A DNA stretch of 14,625 nucleotides, taken from assembly GCA_903838095.1 (NCBI GenBank), contig CAILXE010000101.1:1-14625 (forward strand). Direction: 5' to 3'. Origin of the DNA: an uncultured Chlorobiaceae bacterium (GTDB lineage Bacteria; Bacteroidota; Chlorobiia; Chlorobiales; Chlorobiaceae). Below the pieces are notes generated by a model. It had not been told where the DNA came from, searched no databases, and worked only from the letters and a program-made list of their open reading frames with translations. Made by a program: the position numbers and the translations under genes. Shown one piece after another: positions 3,638-10,780 of this stretch (its first letter is position 1; each line of letters starts with the position of its first letter).

Positions 3638-4066
3638 TTACTGCATCAAGGCAGCAAGTTCTGAACTCAGACGCATACATTTTCGGGCGGCTTGAATGGC
3701 CGACACGCCTTCTTCTTCGCCGAAAAGCTCCCAGGGAAGCCGATATGATGACTCATCTCCATATTTTGCAAGCATTTTTTCGTGTGAATCATACTTTTCC
3801 AACTCTGGAAGTATCTGCTGAATCAATGCAGCAACATCAGTCGTTACGGTTCCTTCTGAAATCAATTGCGACAAATGTCTGGCTGGCTTGTGAGTCAAGG
3901 GAGAAACACCAAAGAGCATCAGCACAGCAAGTCCGGTATTTTCAAGCACAAGTATCGAACCGGAAACACATGCCCGCCAGCGCTTCAGAGAGTAATCCTG
4001 TTCCGCTTCATTCAAAAACCCGCGTGCGAGTTCAAGGCGATACTCAACATTTTTGTCTGATCCCAT
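3638..4066 (-). CDS. HEPN-domain protein (orphan)
   Basis: A 142-residue, mostly helical protein that I assign to the HEPN family (PF05168 type). It has an N-terminal helix with AEQDYSLKRW, the second-helix region through ENTGLAVLMLFGVSP, a T-H-K-P-A-R-H-L segment near 58-65 that resembles the family's TH.L element, and a C-terminal KYGD...PWELF...AIQAARKCMRL stretch that matches HEPN C-termini. Some HEPN proteins are RNase toxins with an R-x(4-6)-H motif; I do not find one in the right place, so nuclease activity is doubtful. HEPN genes often pair with an MNT nucleotidyltransferase antitoxin, and none is adjacent. The start ATG at 4066 has the best ribosome-binding site in this region (AAAGGAGG). 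It lies between lptE and the rfb cluster; its role is unknown. Confidence 0.72.
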   Translation of the reverse strand: MGSDKNVEYRLELARGFLNEAEQDYSLKRWRACVSGSILVLENTGLAVLMLFGVSPLTHKPARHLSQLISEGTVTTDVAALIQQILPELEKYDSHEKMLAKYGDESSYRLPWELFGEEEGVSAIQAARKCMRLSSELAALMQ

Positions 4067-4177: not shown

Positions 4178-4681
4178 TTACCATCCAGAAACAATCCTGT
4201 CAAAAATATCATCAATAATCTGGCCAAGGGCAAAACGAATGGCCGCCTGCTGCGCCAGATAGTTTCCAACGGGATAATCGGCAAATCCAACAAACGATTG
4301 AGTAAAAATTGGCACCTTTTTTACTCGATCTTCCATCGTTACCTGTACGACCAGCGTCACCCTGTTTGTTCTGGCTCGCTGGGTTGAGCTTGAGAGTTGA
4401 CTTGATTCGTCAGAAAATGAAAGAATTGTCCCCTGAACCAGGGCATCGGCCCGTGCAATGGAAGAAATGAATCGGAGAGAGCTCTGTGATTCGACTCTAT
4501 CGACAAGACTTTTGGTCAGCTCTGCCCTGAACTGAGCAATACCTGCACCGGAACGGTCATCAAACACCGGAATGGCAATGGTCTTCAGATGTTCGGGCAG
4601 CGAGCCTCCTTTAAAACTGTAACAACCCTGAAGAGCGCCCAGAAGAAGGAAAAAAAGTATAGTCACACCAGCTTTCCGCAT
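4178..4681 (-). CDS. lptE: LptE-like outer-membrane LPS-assembly lipoprotein
   Basis: Probable partner of LptD that helps insert lipopolysaccharide into the outer membrane. From the ATG at 4681 the protein has 167 residues. It starts with a lipoprotein signal: basic MRK, a hydrophobic stretch to about residue 17, and lipobox LQGC with Cys20 as the lipidated residue. After that come CYSFKGGSLPEHLKTIAIPVFDD and a repeated beta-rich body, as in the LptE family of the Bacteroidetes/Chlorobi type. A TTG two codons upstream (4687) is a possible alternative start. It begins 14 bases after the short-chain dehydrogenase stop, so it is probably the last gene of the bchV-RLP series. No clear terminator follows. 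The family call is good; the symbol is by family resemblance. Confidence 0.8.
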   Translation of the reverse strand: MRKAGVTILFFLLLGALQGCYSFKGGSLPEHLKTIAIPVFDDRSGAGIAQFRAELTKSLVDRVESQSSLRFISSIARADALVQGTILSFSDESSQLSSSTQRARTNRVTLVVQVTMEDRVKKVPIFTQSFVGFADYPVGNYLAQQAAIRFALGQIIDDIFDRIVSGW

Positions 4682-4695
4682 AAACAATGCCCGGA

Positions 4696-5520
4696 TTAAT
4701 AGGTTCGGCGGTCAATCTTGTTCAGTATTTTACGGAAGGGATAGGTCAGGAGCAACCTTTTTTTTCTGGCTCCATTCAACGCCGAAAGATAGACTCCTGT
4801 TTTCGAGTCACTCCAGCTTGATGCAAGTTTCACCGCAAGCCCTGCAGCAACTGAAGGCGACTGGGCAAAAATATCAAGAATAGTATTAAAGGTGGCTAAC
4901 TGCCGTGAAAGCTCAGGGGTAGGATTATCGACGCTGAGCATCCCGGTACGCACCAGACCTGGATGCAGTAACATCACTGATATTCCTTTATGCCTGTACT
5001 CTTCAGCAACAGCATAGGTCAATCTGGCTATGGCTGCCTTGGTGGAACCATAAGCGCTCATCCATGGCGTATTTGAAGTACGGTCTGTGCCGGAACCGGC
5101 CATATTGATCACCTTTCCGGGTATGCTTTCCCTGAGAAAATAGCTGATTGCCGCACGGCAGCCGTTGTAGGTTCCCTTAAGATTGGTATCAATCACCTTG
5201 CCCCATTCATCAGGATTACTCTCAGTAATGCTCCTGAAGGGATCGGAAATCCCTGCATTGTTAATAAAACAGTCAACCTTGCCGAATGTGCCTGTTGCTT
5301 TCAGAATAAGCTGTTCCATATCTGGCATTGAAACAACATTGCAGACACAACCCAGTACGCTCCCGGGCTGAAATTCAGCTACGGCCGCCTGAACATTGGC
5401 ATCTGAGGAGGAAGTAATAACAACCTTTGCGCCTTGCCGGACAAATTCATGAGCGACAGCTTTGCCGATACCTTTTGTAGAACCAGTAATAACGGCAACC
5501 TTTTGGTCGAGCATACCCAT
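4696..5520 (-). CDS. Short-chain dehydrogenase/reductase downstream of the RLP
   Basis: A classical single-domain SDR of 274 residues. Seen: cofactor motif TGSTKGIG at 12-19, NNAG at 87-90, Asn113, Ser143 in AGSG, and YGSTK with Tyr157 and Lys161, so the catalytic tetrad is complete. PGLVRTGM at 187-194 is the usual segment after the active site. The C-terminus carries a basic tail (KKRLLL, RKIL, DRR) beyond the normal ~250 residues, which may be a peripheral membrane or partner contact. The substrate cannot be read from the sequence. The ATG at 5520 lies nine bases after the RLP stop; an ATG two codons in (5514) is equally possible. The tight spacing suggests co-expression and perhaps a shared pathway with the RLP. 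Confidence 0.88.
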   Translation of the reverse strand: MGMLDQKVAVITGSTKGIGKAVAHEFVRQGAKVVITSSSDANVQAAVAEFQPGSVLGCVCNVVSMPDMEQLILKATGTFGKVDCFINNAGISDPFRSITESNPDEWGKVIDTNLKGTYNGCRAAISYFLRESIPGKVINMAGSGTDRTSNTPWMSAYGSTKAAIARLTYAVAEEYRHKGISVMLLHPGLVRTGMLSVDNPTPELSRQLATFNTILDIFAQSPSVAAGLAVKLASSWSDSKTGVYLSALNGARKKRLLLTYPFRKILNKIDRRTY

Positions 5521-5529
5521 GAAAACCTG

Positions 5530-6828
5530 CTATTTTCCGTTGGCCCCATCAACCATCACCTGAAGTTCCGGTCGACCGACTGCATAAGTTTCAAGCTCAA
5601 TACCCTGCTCTATCGCCTCCCAGGCCTGACGGATACTCTTTGCGCCAGCTTTTGGACCCATGGGATGACCAAAAATACCGCGACCGGGTACAAAACCAAA
5701 ATCAACACTGCCGACCTTGCGGTAAACACCTTCGAGCGTCAAGGCTGAATCGCTGCCACCCGGAACAGGAAGTGAACGCCTGATATGGCCAAACTCCTGC
5801 AGGCACTCCTGTATATTCTCTTTTACCTCATCTTCGGGAGTCATCATCCTGCTGCCAAATCCGGGCATGATAATTGAGTCAAGACCTGCAAGGCGTTGCA
5901 GTTTGGTCATAACCCTGGAGTGGACGCCATATTTTTCCATACGGCTGAACGCTGCTATAAACGGAAAATGGCCGATGAGAGGAACTTTCGTATGCTTTGC
6001 CAGCATTCTGACAGCACTGAGACCAACCGGCAGGGCATTAACAAGCAAGGCATTCGCGCCATTGCTGACGGCAATATCGTGTTGCTCAATCAGGCGGTCA
6101 ACCTCATCCGTCACATTGGCAAGATAAATTTTCGGTTCGCCAGTCTCCCGCTCAGCACTCCGTCGTGCGTCTGCCAGCGCATGAGAGCGTTCAATGAGGG
6201 TTGACCAGTCAACATCGGCCAGCATTTCATCATCTTTGGCAATATCAAGACCACCCAGCCAGCTTTGACGGGCAATTTCGGCGAAATCATCGGGACTGAG
6301 TCCTATGTTGGGTTTGACAACACCAAAAAAGATCGGTCGATTATAGGCATGAAGAAGATCACGGATACCATCAATACCGAATTTTGGACCATCAAAAGCA
6401 TTAAGATATGACTCAGGAAAACCTATATCAAGCAACTTGACCACTGGCACACCTGGAGTAAAAAAGACTCCTTCTCCGCACACTGCGGAAAGCAGATTCG
6501 GAATTTTCGTCCCGAAATTGCGATGAGGATGCGCAATAGTCAAGCGGCATGCATGAATAGGGCCGGTAGCCGCATGATGTATCGGATAGCTGAGCGCCTC
6601 AAGCTCACCCTCTACCGTAAGGCTGATAACCTTCGCCCCGTGTTTTGGTCGGAAGTCTTCATCATGGCCCACGCGTTGCCACTGTGCCGTTGATTGTTCA
6701 CTGCAGAAATGAGCAAGGGCAACCTCGATATCTCCCACGCATTCCAGGTAATAATCGAGCGTCAGGTAGTCAGCCATATCAAGCTGCTCCCTTGAGGCAA
6801 AAAAACCTTTAATATCCTCTCTGTTCAT
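5530..6828 (-). CDS. RuBisCO-like protein, form IV (green sulfur/photosynthetic type)
   Basis: A RuBisCO superfamily member that is very unlikely to fix CO2. With the start at 6828 it has 432 residues, like the C. tepidum homologue as I remember it, which also begins [14 protein letters not shown]. Conserved: [10 protein letters not shown] with Lys172 (RuBisCO Lys175), and AKDDE with Lys198, Asp200 and Glu201 (carbamylated Lys201 and the Mg ligands Asp203 and Glu204). Altered: Asn174 in place of Lys177, and loop 6 reads PGFGSR at 322-327 without the canonical Gly-Lys-x-Glu-Gly. GHFPF at 286-290 keeps the histidine but not the following arginine. The C. tepidum protein is known to influence sulfur oxidation, pigment content and stress response; its reaction is unknown. 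In-frame upstream starts exist at 6885 (ATG, with a purine-rich stretch) and 6897 (TTG). It sits between lsrF and an SDR. Confidence 0.93.
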
Positions 6829-6915
6829 AGAAATGCATGAAATACCCCAGCCCCGGCCTGCCGCAAGTTGCTCAAGGGTTACCATTAAAAAAATCAAACT
6901 CTTTCTGTACTCTGT

Positions 6916-7797
6916 TTACCCTTCAGATTTGATGGTATTGAAATACTCAAACGCATCCTGCGGATTCATCTTCTCATGGACGACCTTGTTGACGGCTTTC
7001 ATCATGGCAAGAGGGAAATCACTCTGAAAAATATTGCGTCCCATGTCGACACCCGAAGCGCCTTCATTGATTGCACGCCAGGACATCGTCAGTGCTTCGA
7101 GTTCAGGAAGTTTTTTGCCGCCTGCCATAACAATCGGTACCGGGCATGACGCAATAACGGTATCAAAATCTTCGGGCACATAATAGGTCTTGACAATCTG
7201 TGCCCCAAGCTCCGCTGCCATACGGCATGCAAGCCTGAAATATTTGGCGTCTCGCACCATATCCTTGCCGACAGCGGTCACGGCCATAGTAGGAATACCG
7301 TAACGCAGACCCATATCAACAAGCCTTGTCATATTGTGAATAGAACGAGTCTCATATTCTCCACCAATGAATATCTGGAGAGTGATTGCGGCAACGTTCA
7401 TGCGGATGGCATCTTCGATATCAACCGCAAGCTCTTCGTCTGAAAGCTCCTTGAGAATGCTTGGACCACCGCTGCAACGCATGACGACGGCTCTGGTGAG
7501 GCTTGGAGGAACAGTTGTCCGCAGAATACCACGGGTCAGCATGATCGCATCAGCATAGGGCATAAGCGGGACGATGTTGACGTCCGGCCGTTCAAGCCCG
7601 GTGGTCGGCCCCTGAAAGTAGCCATGATCAATAGCAAGCATGACTGTCTTTCCTGTATCAGGTCTGAAAATTCTTGAAAGACGGTTTTTCATTCCCCAAT
7701 CCAGAGAATGTGCGCCTTTAAGAAAAAATCCATAATTATTGACCGGAGTATCCAGATAATACTCTTTTGCCTGCTTGTCTTTATCGTATTCTGCCAT
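6916..7797 (-). CDS. lsrF: LsrF-type thiolase/aldolase (class I, DeoC/FbaB fold)
   Basis: A 293-residue protein very close to E. coli LsrF as I remember it: shared stretches include [43 protein letters not shown] and AMMKAV. E. coli LsrF transfers an acetyl group from 3-hydroxy-5-phosphonooxypentane-2,4-dione to CoA, giving DHAP and acetyl-CoA in autoinducer-2 breakdown, using a Schiff-base lysine at position 203. Here Lys203 in QIVKTYYV falls at the same residue number. The length is normal. The ATG at 7797 has a good ribosome-binding site (AAGAGGAGA at 7806-7814). No other lsr gene (kinase, transporter, lsrG, repressor) is nearby; instead it lies between the aldolase fusion and the RLP. So the fold and chemistry are well supported, but the natural substrate is open. 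Confidence 0.85.
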
Positions 7798-7857
7798 GGT
7801 ATCGATCTCCTCTTTCGCTGTTATAATTGTTATATGTCTTCAATATTTTGTGCTCAT

Positions 7858-9975
7858 TCAGCGGAGCGCGGCGGCGATGTTGCCTCCATCTACTGTCGTA
7901 ATTGAACCAGTTGTCCTGATTTCAAGGGCAAGATGCACAAAGGCTTCCGCAACATCTTCGGCGGTCACCTCAAGCTGTAACAGATTTCCTGCCATGTATT
8001 CCCGCTCACTCAGGCCACGGGCGGCTGATCGGGCCTTGATCATCTCTGCGGTCAGCAGGCCGCTGCGAATGCGATCTGCATTAATTCCGTTCGCCCGAAT
8101 ACCGTCACGTCCATGATCAAGCGCATACTGACGGACGAGAAACATCGTTGCTGCTTTAGGCAGACCATAGGGACCAAAATCCGGACCAGGATTGACCGCC
8201 TGTTTGGATACGTTGAACAGCAGGACGCCTCCTGTCCCTTGCAGTTTCATGATTTTCACCGCATCCTGGGCAATGGACTGGTGTGAAAAGAAGTTTATTT
8301 CAAAGCTCTTTCGAAGCAGATCGTCAGAGACTTCTCCGATACGCCCCTGAATGGCGGCACCAACATTGGAAACAATAATATCCACCCCACCAAAGCGGCG
8401 ACATGCGGCATCAAATGCCGCGTGAACATCGGCCCTTGAGGTAACATCACAGGTCAGGGCAAGAACGCTCCCGCCAAGCTCCTCTGCTGCCCGATCAAGA
8501 GACTCTCTGGTCAGGTCAAGAATGACCAGTTCAGCCCCTCTCTGACGAAAAGCTTTGGCTGTTGCAAGACCGATACCACTTGCCGCCCCGGTGACCAACA
8601 CGACTTTGCCGGCAAAGACATCGTGATGAACCTTGGTCATCTTGGCTTGTTCCATATCCCAGTACTCTATCTCAAATGCTTCACGGTCACTGATGGTTTC
8701 AAAAGTGCCAAGTGATTCCGCATCAAGAATGGCTGAAGCGGTACAGGTTGCTATATCAGCATTGACAGCCGCAGATTCAGCAGTTTTGCCAAGCCCGAAA
8801 AGCCCGAACCCGGGAACAAGCACCACTCTTGGAAGAGGATCAAGCATGGTTACCTGCATGTCGGAAGTCTGCTGCTGAACGGTAAAGTACTCGGTATACT
8901 CCTGACAATAGCGTTGAACAGCCTCATGTACCGCTGCCTTGAATCCTGCAATATTTTCTGCATCAGGCGCAGGAACAAGAAGTGGTTTATTTTTGGTTCG
9001 AATAATAAAGTCAGGCGTCATGGCACCCCGTTGACTCATAGTGGCAAGATCGGCGCTGTTCACATAGTGAAGAATATCGGCAGAGGTGCGAAAATCAAGA
9101 ATAAACTGGTGATACTCACGCATCCCTGGTGATTTTTCCTCAACACAGGCTCCCCTGATCACTGGAGCAACTATTTCTAATGGTGCAATTGTCTGAGGTA
9201 ACGATATCGAGGGAAAGGTTTTTCGGCCAGCCTGGGCAATACGATGTTCAAGCATGCTGACCGCTTCAATCATCTGCGTATACGCTTCTTTTGCCGTGGA
9301 ACCAAAAGTAACAAGACCATGCTTCTGAAGCACCAGGCCTTTGATATCCCGATTTGCATCATAAACACTGGCGGCAGATCGGGCAAGTCCAAGACCCGGC
9401 TTGATATAGGGCACAGAGCCAAAGTTTTCACCGAGCGTTTCCCGACAGAGCCGGTCACCATCTGGCTGATTACTGACGGTAAGCAACGCAAAAGAGTGGG
9501 TATGGAGAATAAACCGGTGCGGCAGAAAGGCATGAAGGAGCGTCTCTATCGAAGGTGTCAGTCTCTTTTCGGCCATGTGGTCGGTCAGACTGAACATGTT
9601 CAACAACAGAAGATGCTTAAACTCCTTGGTCGAAAAGCGACGAAGCGCCTCTTCGCCGATGCTGTCGTTATGGGTGAAAAGCTCCACAAGTTTACGCAGG
9701 GGTATCAGTCTGAGTGGCGTATAATCCCGACCGGTAACCCGGCTCAGATCGACTCCACTTGCCTTGATCAACAGTACTTCAGCGCGGTTGCCAACCATAT
9801 CAACCAGTTCGCACTTGACGGAGGTATTACCCCCGCCATGCATCACAAGCGAACTTTCACTTCCAAGAAGACGGGATGCATAAACTAATTCGGCAAGTTC
9901 CGTTTGCATCTCAGACATGCGGCACTGCTCTGCGACGGATTGCTGAAGATCAGCTTCATTCCAAAGGTTCTGCAT
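7858..9975 (-). CDS. Class II aldolase / short-chain dehydrogenase fusion (RhaD-SDR type)
   Basis: A 705-residue two-domain enzyme of the family annotated as bifunctional rhamnulose-1-phosphate aldolase/dehydrogenase. Domain 1 (about 1-250, with a linker region to ~450) is a class II sugar-phosphate aldolase: HGGGNTSVK at 46-54, probable catalytic Glu144, and zinc ligands His158, His160 (HTH) and His219 (QKHG). Domain 2 (about 455-705) is an SDR: VTGAASGIG at 461-469, Asn561, Ser590, Tyr603 and Lys607 (YGLPK), all complete. Family knowledge: the aldolase releases DHAP plus an aldehyde such as lactaldehyde, and the dehydrogenase oxidises or reduces it. The ATG at 9975 gives MQNLWNEAD, matching family N-termini; the Shine-Dalgarno is poor. 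No rhamnose isomerase or kinase is near. It lies upstream of lsrF (60-base gap), so a shared pathway with the RLP is likely. Confidence 0.9.
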   Translation of the reverse strand: MQNLWNEADLQQSVAEQCRMSEMQTELAELVYASRLLGSESSLVMHGGGNTSVKCELVDMVGNRAEVLLIKASGVDLSRVTGRDYTPLRLIPLRKLVELFTHNDSIGEEALRRFSTKEFKHLLLLNMFSLTDHMAEKRLTPSIETLLHAFLPHRFILHTHSFALLTVSNQPDGDRLCRETLGENFGSVPYIKPGLGLARSAASVYDANRDIKGLVLQKHGLVTFGSTAKEAYTQMIEAVSMLEHRIAQAGRKTFPSISLPQTIAPLEIVAPVIRGACVEEKSPGMREYHQFILDFRTSADILHYVNSADLATMSQRGAMTPDFIIRTKNKPLLVPAPDAENIAGFKAAVHEAVQRYCQEYTEYFTVQQQTSDMQVTMLDPLPRVVLVPGFGLFGLGKTAESAAVNADIATCTASAILDAESLGTFETISDREAFEIEYWDMEQAKMTKVHHDVFAGKVVLVTGAASGIGLATAKAFRQRGAELVILDLTRESLDRAAEELGGSVLALTCDVTSRADVHAAFDAACRRFGGVDIIVSNVGAAIQGRIGEVSDDLLRKSFEINFFSHQSIAQDAVKIMKLQGTGGVLLFNVSKQAVNPGPDFGPYGLPKAATMFLVRQYALDHGRDGIRANGINADRIRSGLLTAEMIKARSAARGLSEREYMAGNLLQLEVTAEDVAEAFVHLALEIRTTGSITTVDGGNIAAALR

Positions 9976-10052: not shown

Positions 10053-10271
10053 TCATTGCCTCGCCTTTTTTTTCTTTTCATGCCACCTTTCAATAAAAAA
10101 TCCAGAACTGTAGACAATGAGAAAACCGGGAATCACAATACAAAGAAAAGAAATTTTGTCCCCTGTTGTTTGCAGTTGGCCGGATGACCAGATCATCCAC
10201 ACCAGCAGATACCAGGCCGGGCCTACAAACAGAAATGCGGTGTTCCAGAGCCTTTTAAAACTATATTTCAT
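10053..10271 (-). CDS. Small two-helix membrane protein of unknown function
   Basis: A 72-residue protein I do not recognise. It has a short basic start (MKYSFKRLW), a first hydrophobic helix at about 12-29, a polar loop (SSGQLQTTGDK), a second helix at about 40-58, and a very basic tail ending FIERWHEKKKKARQ. This predicts two membrane passes with both ends on the positive, cytoplasmic side. The ATG at 10271 lies 35 bases after the bchV stop and has no strong Shine-Dalgarno, so translation may be coupled to bchV. The clean helix-loop-helix and the compatible position argue for a real gene. A partner for the membrane-bound hydratase is possible but only inferred from position. Confidence 0.65.
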   Translation of the reverse strand: MKYSFKRLWNTAFLFVGPAWYLLVWMIWSSGQLQTTGDKISFLCIVIPGFLIVYSSGFFIERWHEKKKKARQ

Positions 10272-10306: not shown

Positions 10307-10780
10307 TCAGAGGCGACCTTCAATCCGAAGATTGCGTTCATTGAGTTTTTCAAGAATAATCCTGATCAGATACTGCAGTGCATTAACCACATAGGTAAAA
10401 TAAGCCAGATAAGCATCCAGAATCAGTACCTCCTGTGAAGCTCCAAACCAGGCCAGAAAAAAGTACAACAGGTGAAATGCTGCTGCAACAGTGCTTCCGA
10501 CATCTTCCCAAAAAAACTCTTTAGAGTAGACCCATTGATTAAAAACCTCCTTTTCAAAAAACATTCCTGTAATGAAAAGAAGAGCGAAAAACAGTGTTTT
10601 AAATAAAATTGCAAGACTGACCCAATAAAGACCGGGAACGAAAAGAGCATTGGCATAGAGTACCGTGATGGTCAATCCGGCAATAAAAAAGAGAAACTGG
10701 ATCGGAGCAAGAATAATCTGAATATCGGTCCAAACTGATGCGTTTCGTTTGACAAGCTGTTCTGGAGTATAGCGCGGCAT
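10307..10780 (-). CDS. bchV: 3-vinyl bacteriochlorophyllide hydratase (BchF/BchV family)
   Basis: Hydrates the 3-vinyl group of a (bacterio)chlorophyllide to 3-(1-hydroxyethyl), a step in making bacteriochlorophyll c, d or e for chlorosomes. The 157-residue protein starts [17 protein letters not shown], with the family's YTPEQ...RNAS.W and [10 protein letters not shown] elements, then [19 protein letters not shown] near 89-107. Four hydrophobic segments (about 23-45, 53-75, 96-112, 120-142) mark it as an integral membrane enzyme. Green sulfur bacteria carry two paralogues, bchF and bchV; I choose bchV because in C. tepidum, from memory, bchV (CT1776) lies near the RLP gene (CT1772), as here. 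The ATG at 10780 is preceded by a weak AAGAAG. It is divergent from recX and is first in the minus-strand series that includes the RLP. Confidence 0.85.

Follow-up and report, generated by a model that had tools for sequence, protein, structure and literature searches.

What does a RuBisCO-like protein (RLP) do in a green sulfur bacterium when it stands beside a thiolase and a fused aldolase? The question is raised by a 14,625-nucleotide stretch of DNA from an uncultured Chlorobiaceae bacterium (assembly GCA_903838095.1, contig CAILXE010000101.1; hereafter the window), whose list of open reading frames (ORFs) holds four open frames on the minus strand in the order class II aldolase/short-chain dehydrogenase-reductase (SDR) fusion, LsrF-type thiolase, RLP and separate SDR. 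An earlier note on this DNA described four enzyme genes in a row on one strand with short gaps, a description that the ORFs, their families and the gaps bear out. It proposed that the cluster salvages a 5-deoxy- or 5-methylthio-pentose phosphate, with the RLP making a ketose or dicarbonyl phosphate that the aldolase or the thiolase cleaves. Our analysis keeps the salvage cluster, which conservation and the aldolase substrate favour and in which LsrF plausibly belongs, and does not support the RLP as the maker of the compound that is cleaved. The cluster is best described as a conserved and coherent variant of the kind known as 5-deoxyribose salvage or the dihydroxyacetone phosphate (DHAP) shunt. 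Whether it disposes of 5-deoxyribulose-1-phosphate derived from 5'-deoxyadenosine, by the route set out below, appears evenly balanced.

Genome contigs were searched with an RLP alignment, and 80 of 228 relatives were kept: 65 loci (L002-L066) from Chlorobiaceae or Chlorobiota and a further set (L067-L081) from outside the Chlorobiaceae. Gene order was counted only at those of the 65 loci whose contig reaches far enough. The fusion gene directly precedes lsrF in 57/57 loci and lsrF directly precedes the RLP gene in 61/61; the SDR gene is next after the RLP gene in 64/64, and lptE lies downstream of it in 63/63. The block is headed by bchF in 52 of 55 loci (the exceptions being L047, L048 and L050), and the 72-aa ORF that separates bchF from the fusion gene in the window, too short for the ORF list, has matches both at Chlorobiaceae loci and within the bciD-type islands described below. 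This arrangement is far beyond chance, and the conserved block is longer than first described, comprising bchF, the 72-aa ORF, the four enzyme genes and lptE. The comparison of neighbourhoods called for in the earlier note therefore came out in its favour within the Chlorobiaceae, at every locus with enough contig. Of the 98 genomes of the order, 79 gave a match to LsrF and 82 to the RLP, fragments counted.

The fusion scored 1365.3 bits against NF006193 (cut-off 1213) and 856.3 bits against NF006192 (cut-off 639). It carries the motifs HTH, KHG, TGAASGIG and YGLPK, and all four motif tests were passed by 60 of 61 translated relatives. In 78 of the 98 genomes, as counted from the class II aldolase (PF00596) search, the fusion is the sole match to that family; 11 genomes (G086, G088-G097) carry a stand-alone class II aldolase instead, without the fusion, and none has both. 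The split follows families, and one or two switches may lie behind it. Nine Chlorobiaceae genomes gave no class II aldolase match. Six of these are less than 90% complete and, among the other three, G047 and G013 have cluster pieces at contig ends, while G050 may represent a real loss.

The neighbourhoods of fusion relatives were viewed in plasmid records only. Of 24 records (H41-H64) at 46.8% identity or more, many of them close kin, 13 were fetched, chiefly once mtnA had appeared in the first two; three loci at about 42% identity and four rhamnose loci were chosen rather than sampled systematically. All 13 fetched loci of the nearest full-length relatives (47-50% identity) have mtnA nearby, and 12 have mtnK. 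These mtnA-linked relatives belong to Hyphomicrobiales, Tistrella and Gemmatirosa, with a direct mtnK-mtnA-fusion arrangement in Gemmatirosa and a direct mtnA-fusion arrangement in Tistrella. In seven of the 13, a split transketolase and an RLP of about 372 aa are encoded as well; L144 and L145 were seen with flanks of 7 kb, too short for a trailing RLP to show. At about 42% identity mtnA was found in none of the three loci, within the flanks covered, and at 30-35% identity rhaI was present in 4/4 fetched loci, two of which also encode rhamnulokinase. On Rhizobiaceae plasmids (L149-L152, L154, L155 and L163) the fusion clusters with a sugar ABC transporter, mtnK, mtnA, the split transketolase and the second kind of RLP.

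In a tree of 30 chosen rows, the rhaI-linked clade split off with support of 100/100, with a long-branch warning at that point, and the Chlorobiaceae/G087 clade (100/99) was sister, with modest support (82/82), to a clade of the 13 mtnA-linked and three unlinked rows. The domain order of the window fusion, aldolase followed by SDR, is that of the rhamnose enzyme RhaEW. Since this family includes RhaEW, and since rfb-like ORFs (which we take to be such from their sequences) lie in the window with lptE next door, a role in sugar or envelope metabolism was considered, with rhamnulose-1-phosphate or another deoxyhexulose phosphate as substrate. We regard it as extremely improbable. The rfbA-like gene is no fixed neighbour of the cluster in Chlorobiaceae loci, and neither rhaI nor rhaB is among the typed window ORFs; rhamnose catabolism itself was rejected because the fusion missed the cut-off of the rhamnulose-type model TIGR02632 (439.6 against 567.75 bits) and because the tree sets the rhaI-linked fusions apart.

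Because the fusion is the sole class II aldolase, has mtnA-linked relatives and stands far from the rhamnose-type fusions, its likely substrate is 5-deoxy- or 5-methylthio-ribulose-1-phosphate. This assignment is the strongest part of the reading and, judged from the sequences, we consider it probable. The pentose phosphate first proposed thus has support as the aldolase substrate, to which the presence of the MtnA family adds, with the methylthio version the less likely of the two. In excerpts of two papers on 5-deoxyribose salvage, the aldolases are of the fuculose-aldolase type or other class II enzymes and the fusion goes unmentioned (PMC6079011, PMC12632272).

The substrate would be supplied from 5'-deoxyadenosine, a by-product of radical S-adenosylmethionine (radical-SAM) enzymes, which purine nucleoside phosphorylase (PNP) and MtnA would convert to 5-deoxyribulose-1-phosphate. 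Green sulfur bacteria use several radical-SAM enzymes for bacteriochlorophyll. The MtnA family (PF01008) was found in 93 of the 98 genomes; in G035 the gene of a PF01008 protein typed as MtnA lies 15 bp from the PNP gene, and the two genes adjoin in all three Chlorobiaceae stretches read (L095, L096 and L102). The window's own assembly gave no MtnA; there the PNP gene sits at a contig edge (L101). In an alignment, the PNP beside MtnA has Asp at the position of an Asn in 6-oxopurine PNPs. A route through the deaminase DadD was set aside, as each of four genomes had a single PF01979 match and those typed (G035 and G086) were dihydroorotase.

The conversion of 5-deoxyribose to 5-deoxyribulose-1-phosphate, and of this to DHAP and acetaldehyde, is established salvage in other bacteria (PMC6079011; PMC10986504). 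The Chlorobiaceae resemble those systems (MtnK or MtnP, MtnA and Ald2; drdK-drdI-drdA) in the MtnA family, in a single class II aldolase per genome, in the expected 5-deoxyribulose-1-phosphate and in DHAP as a product. In contrast, their aldolase is a 705-aa SDR fusion accompanied by LsrF and the RLP, it is not encoded beside mtnA in the Chlorobiaceae genomes examined, and acetyl-CoA rather than acetaldehyde is the proposed second product.

The LsrF homologue scored 512.6 bits against NF006081 (cut-off 297) and 398 bits against the E. coli LsrF chains 3gkf/3glc. The substrate of LsrF is 3-hydroxy-2,4-pentanedione-5-phosphate (HPD-P). All 64 translated copies retain both catalytic residues, the Schiff-base Lys203 and Asp251 (PMC2728841). 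The products of LsrF are DHAP and acetyl-CoA (PMC7828210; PMC8016206), and a hydrated form of the substrate is named in the second of these papers. Family and active site are those of autoinducer-2 (AI-2) degradation by the E. coli lsr operon. AI-2 degradation was nevertheless rejected here because LuxS was matched in 0/98 genomes of the order, the control being matched in 5/14; moreover, no lsrK, lsrG or lsr transporter is among the typed ORFs of the window.

By reasoning from structure, 5-deoxyribulose-1-phosphate (CH2OP-CO-CHOH-CHOH-CH3), once oxidised at C4 to CH2OP-CO-CHOH-CO-CH3, would be HPD-P itself. This identity gains weight because RhaEW without NAD+ yields no DHAP: DHAP was lost as well as lactate, which the authors themselves explain by the aldolase domain depending on the dehydrogenase domain (PMC3870299). 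A place for LsrF in the same route as the aldolase, as first suggested, is therefore plausible, and that it works on the C4-oxidised product is a possibility that, on the sequences, falls somewhat short of an even chance. Other settings of LsrF were also seen: dhaK, dhaL and lsrF adjoin on two Bacteroidota plasmids (L141 and L142), and on a Sagittula plasmid (L146) an FGGY kinase gene and lsrF are followed by a member of the fusion family reduced to its aldolase half, with no SDR domain.

The RLP belongs to PF00016 and, by sequence, to the Photo clade of form IV RuBisCO, closest to the C. tepidum RLP and R. palustris RLP2; its nearest PDB chains are 1tel/1ykw (760-762 bits) and 2qyg (668 bits), with the next chain at 173 bits. 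The RLP of the R. rubrum methylthioadenosine (MTA)-isoprenoid shunt and MtnW, which enolise ketose phosphates, belong like it to the RuBisCO superfamily. Unlike MtnW, the window RLP lies far under both curated MtnW cut-offs (197.4 against 409 and 154.2 against 513.6 bits). Compared by eye in an alignment with 2cwx, it retains the first catalytic Lys as well as the Lys-Asp-Asp-Glu set, has Arg in place of the loop-6 Lys, and is altered at the positions that bind the second phosphate. The last two features set it apart from a carboxylating RuBisCO. The residues fit an enolising enzyme that acts on a monophosphate.

We propose that the fusion would take the place of the DHAP-shunt aldolase, and that oxidation at C4, by its SDR domain or by the separate SDR, would give HPD-P (CH3-CO-CHOH-CO-CH2OP), which LsrF and CoA would cleave to DHAP and acetyl-CoA. 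On this same pool the RLP would serve as an enolising isomerase specific for monophosphates, in a side branch or an adjustment. Every one of these reactions, the order of oxidation before cleavage and the RLP step are inferred from observed gene order, families, active-site letters and genome distribution. In its complete form, the proposal has 5-deoxyribulose-1-phosphate, NAD+ and CoA yielding DHAP, acetyl-CoA and NADH through the fusion's SDR domain and LsrF, makes 5'-deoxyadenosine salvage, and not the breakdown of a quorum signal, a role of LsrF in the absence of LuxS, and has the RLP as an enolising isomerase of C5 monophosphates. We put this form forward tentatively, and would lean against its holding in every part.

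G026 and G048 each have two fusion copies, the second in a fusion-LsrF pair (L082 and L083). Ahead of the pair come bchF, a small ORF and the gene of a variant radical-SAM protein. The 401-aa product of that gene scored 332.3 bits against NF045502. It fits BciD, a name that rests on the report that bciD lies with cruB and a bchF-like gene (PMC3613366); the cruB-like protein was unconfirmed by model. Among nine genomes with the bciD-type gene, the pair is intact in these two and left as remnants in two others (L105 and L107). No trace of it was seen in four loci, over the 1.5 kb viewed, and in L111 the contig ends inside the gene. The link to radical-SAM chemistry from these second copies is suggestive only, and the pair may have travelled along with bchF. 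In favour of the proposed route, the pairing of fusion and LsrF turns up repeatedly: in these second copies, in G087 and, with an aldolase half, in Sagittula.

A number of observations weigh against the proposed route. MtnA is not encoded next to the cluster: the distance is about 70 kb in G025, whose genome is a single contig, and about 39 kb in G016. Relatives that lack the cluster commonly have MtnA too, and by itself it is therefore no distinguishing sign. The PNP fits ordinary models (PRK08202, 385 bits), with 70.3 bits against the MTAP model, whose cut-off is 274.85. Selection on the second pair looks weak, since only two of nine are intact and two are remnants. No LsrF lies within the flanks of the mtnA-linked plasmid loci (in one such record it lies about 190 kb away), and plain aldol cleavage with release of acetaldehyde is possible. 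That cleavage would belong to an ordinary DHAP shunt, in which the aldolase domain forms DHAP and an aldehyde from 5-deoxy- or 5-methylthio-ribulose-1-phosphate, the SDR domain oxidises the aldehyde, and LsrF, the RLP and the second SDR are unrelated neighbours by history. The plasmid flanks agree with such a history, as does the fact that LsrF, the RLP and the fusion are separable in other genomes. However, the fusion and LsrF genes adjoin in all 57 Chlorobiaceae loci counted, in G087 and in two intact second copies, RhaEW gave no DHAP without NAD+, and SDR proteins rarely turn aldehydes into acids; we therefore hold the ordinary shunt to be rather unlikely.

The remaining points against the proposed route concern the RLP. 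Outside the Chlorobiaceae, 16 RLP loci were seen (15 from the kept 80, plus L086), which do not amount to a census. In all 16 (L067-L081 and L086, the family being typed by model in L086) a YjbQ (UPF0047) gene lies just 5' of the RLP gene on the same strand, within about 0.2 kb, in the place that LsrF and the fusion occupy in the Chlorobiaceae. LsrF was matched in 0/14 proteobacterial RLP carriers, a set with no positive control, although the same query matched 79/98 Chlorobiales genomes. The Chloroherpeton-like G086 has the RLP without the fusion and without LsrF. Lastly, the Photo-clade RLP2 of R. palustris reportedly plays a negligible part in MTA metabolism, and its deletion had no MTA phenotype (PMC5893883). 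On these grounds the RLP is not supported as the source of a ketose or dicarbonyl for its neighbours to cleave; moreover, MtnA would already make the ketose. From its sequence and setting, a role for the RLP in the pathway is doubtful.

The same evidence bears on two further explanations. In one, the RLP would be a 5-deoxyribulose-1-phosphate 1,3-isomerase that forms 1-deoxyxylulose-5-phosphate for isoprenoids, in a deoxy version of the MTA-isoprenoid shunt of Rhodospirillum, while the fusion and LsrF would remove the excess. R. palustris RLP2 reportedly converts, slowly, a small part of methylthioribulose-1-phosphate in vitro (PMC5893883), a different RLP clusters with mtnK, mtnA, the fusion and the split transketolase in the seven plasmid loci noted above, and the altered second-phosphate positions, read by eye, suit a monophosphate. 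Yet that plasmid RLP shares only about 29% identity with the window RLP and is nearest to 3qfw, then to 4nas and MtnW chains, and the Photo-clade RLP genes seen outside the Chlorobiaceae adjoin YjbQ; we take the isomerase to be quite improbable. In the other, the cluster would handle 5-methylthioribulose-1-phosphate in MTA salvage, in keeping with the MtnA family in these genomes. Since RLP2 has a negligible MTA role, the 5-deoxy version is favoured over the methylthio one, and with no known methanethiol- or methionine-forming enzyme among the typed window ORFs we consider MTA salvage highly improbable.

YjbQ was tried as a member of the Chlorobiaceae cluster and rejected: the family is present in 87/98 genomes of the order, but no match lay beside the cluster in the 65 Chlorobiaceae loci, over stretches that reached 10 kb at most and were often shorter. 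G087 has YjbQ-RLP on one contig and a fusion-LsrF pair on another (L084). Because the two pairs also occur separately, the Chlorobiaceae cluster looks like a union of two modules. No paper joining YjbQ with RuBisCO-like proteins was found among open-licence papers. The pairing of YjbQ with Photo-clade RLPs may point to a role of YjbQ itself, and in two Shinella loci (L153 and L164) YjbQ stands beside triose-phosphate isomerase, a TIM-barrel or sugar-phosphate isomerase protein and an FGGY kinase.

If the preferred route through HPD-P holds, it would suggest what LsrF may do in bacteria that lack LuxS and add a fused-aldolase variant to the known 5-deoxyribose salvage clusters. It would also give a short list of candidate substrates for the Chlorobium RLP, 5-deoxyribulose-1-phosphate and HPD-P. 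A possible tie of the cluster to 5'-deoxyadenosine from bacteriochlorophyll synthesis might explain how losing the RLP or its neighbours could disturb pigments and stress responses; loss of the Chlorobium RLP reportedly affects pigment. Structures of the Chlorobium RLP have been solved. Broad effects of a Chlorobium RLP mutant are cited in PMC5893883, and no substrate for this protein was found in the excerpts of the literature searched.

The features of the locus are listed in the table. The fusion and lsrF genes are separated by 60 bp, the RLP and SDR genes by 9 bp, and the SDR gene and lptE by 8 bp. In the ORF list the RLP has a longer frame, 5530-6897, from a TTG at 6897, which would leave 18 bp after lsrF; with the ATG at 6828 the gap is 87 bp. 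The ATG is the more likely start, because 14 of 15 aligned relatives begin at the same residue (the other one residue earlier) and in-frame stops interrupt the sequence 5' of it in many relatives. LptE is probably a fixed neighbour outside the pathway.

Table. Genes of the cluster and its neighbours, in window coordinates
Feature	Position	Strand	Basis
Class II aldolase/SDR fusion, RhaD/RhaEW-like, 705 aa	7858..9975	-	NF006193, NF006192
LsrF-type thiolase, 293 aa	6916..7797	-	NF006081; E. coli LsrF chains; Lys203 and Asp251
Photo-clade RLP, 432 aa from ATG	5530..6828	-	1tel/1ykw, 2qyg
SDR, 274 aa	4696..5520	-	PF00106, 152 bits
LptE, lipopolysaccharide-assembly lipoprotein, downstream neighbour	4178..4687	-	PF04390
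72-aa ORF separating the bchF and fusion genes; looks membrane-like by eye	10053..10271	-	Sequence matches in relatives
BchF, 2-vinyl bacteriochlorophyllide hydratase, upstream neighbour	10307..10780	-	TIGR02020, 197.5 bits

A consensus scan, which was not used as evidence, gave 6 promoter-like sites in the window against 9.4 in shuffles and 11 terminator-like sites against 7.2 (sd 3.2). Between lptE and the rfb-like genes, at 3638-4066 on the minus strand, lies a HEPN-like ORF that scored 21.2 bits against a Pfam cut-off of 22.

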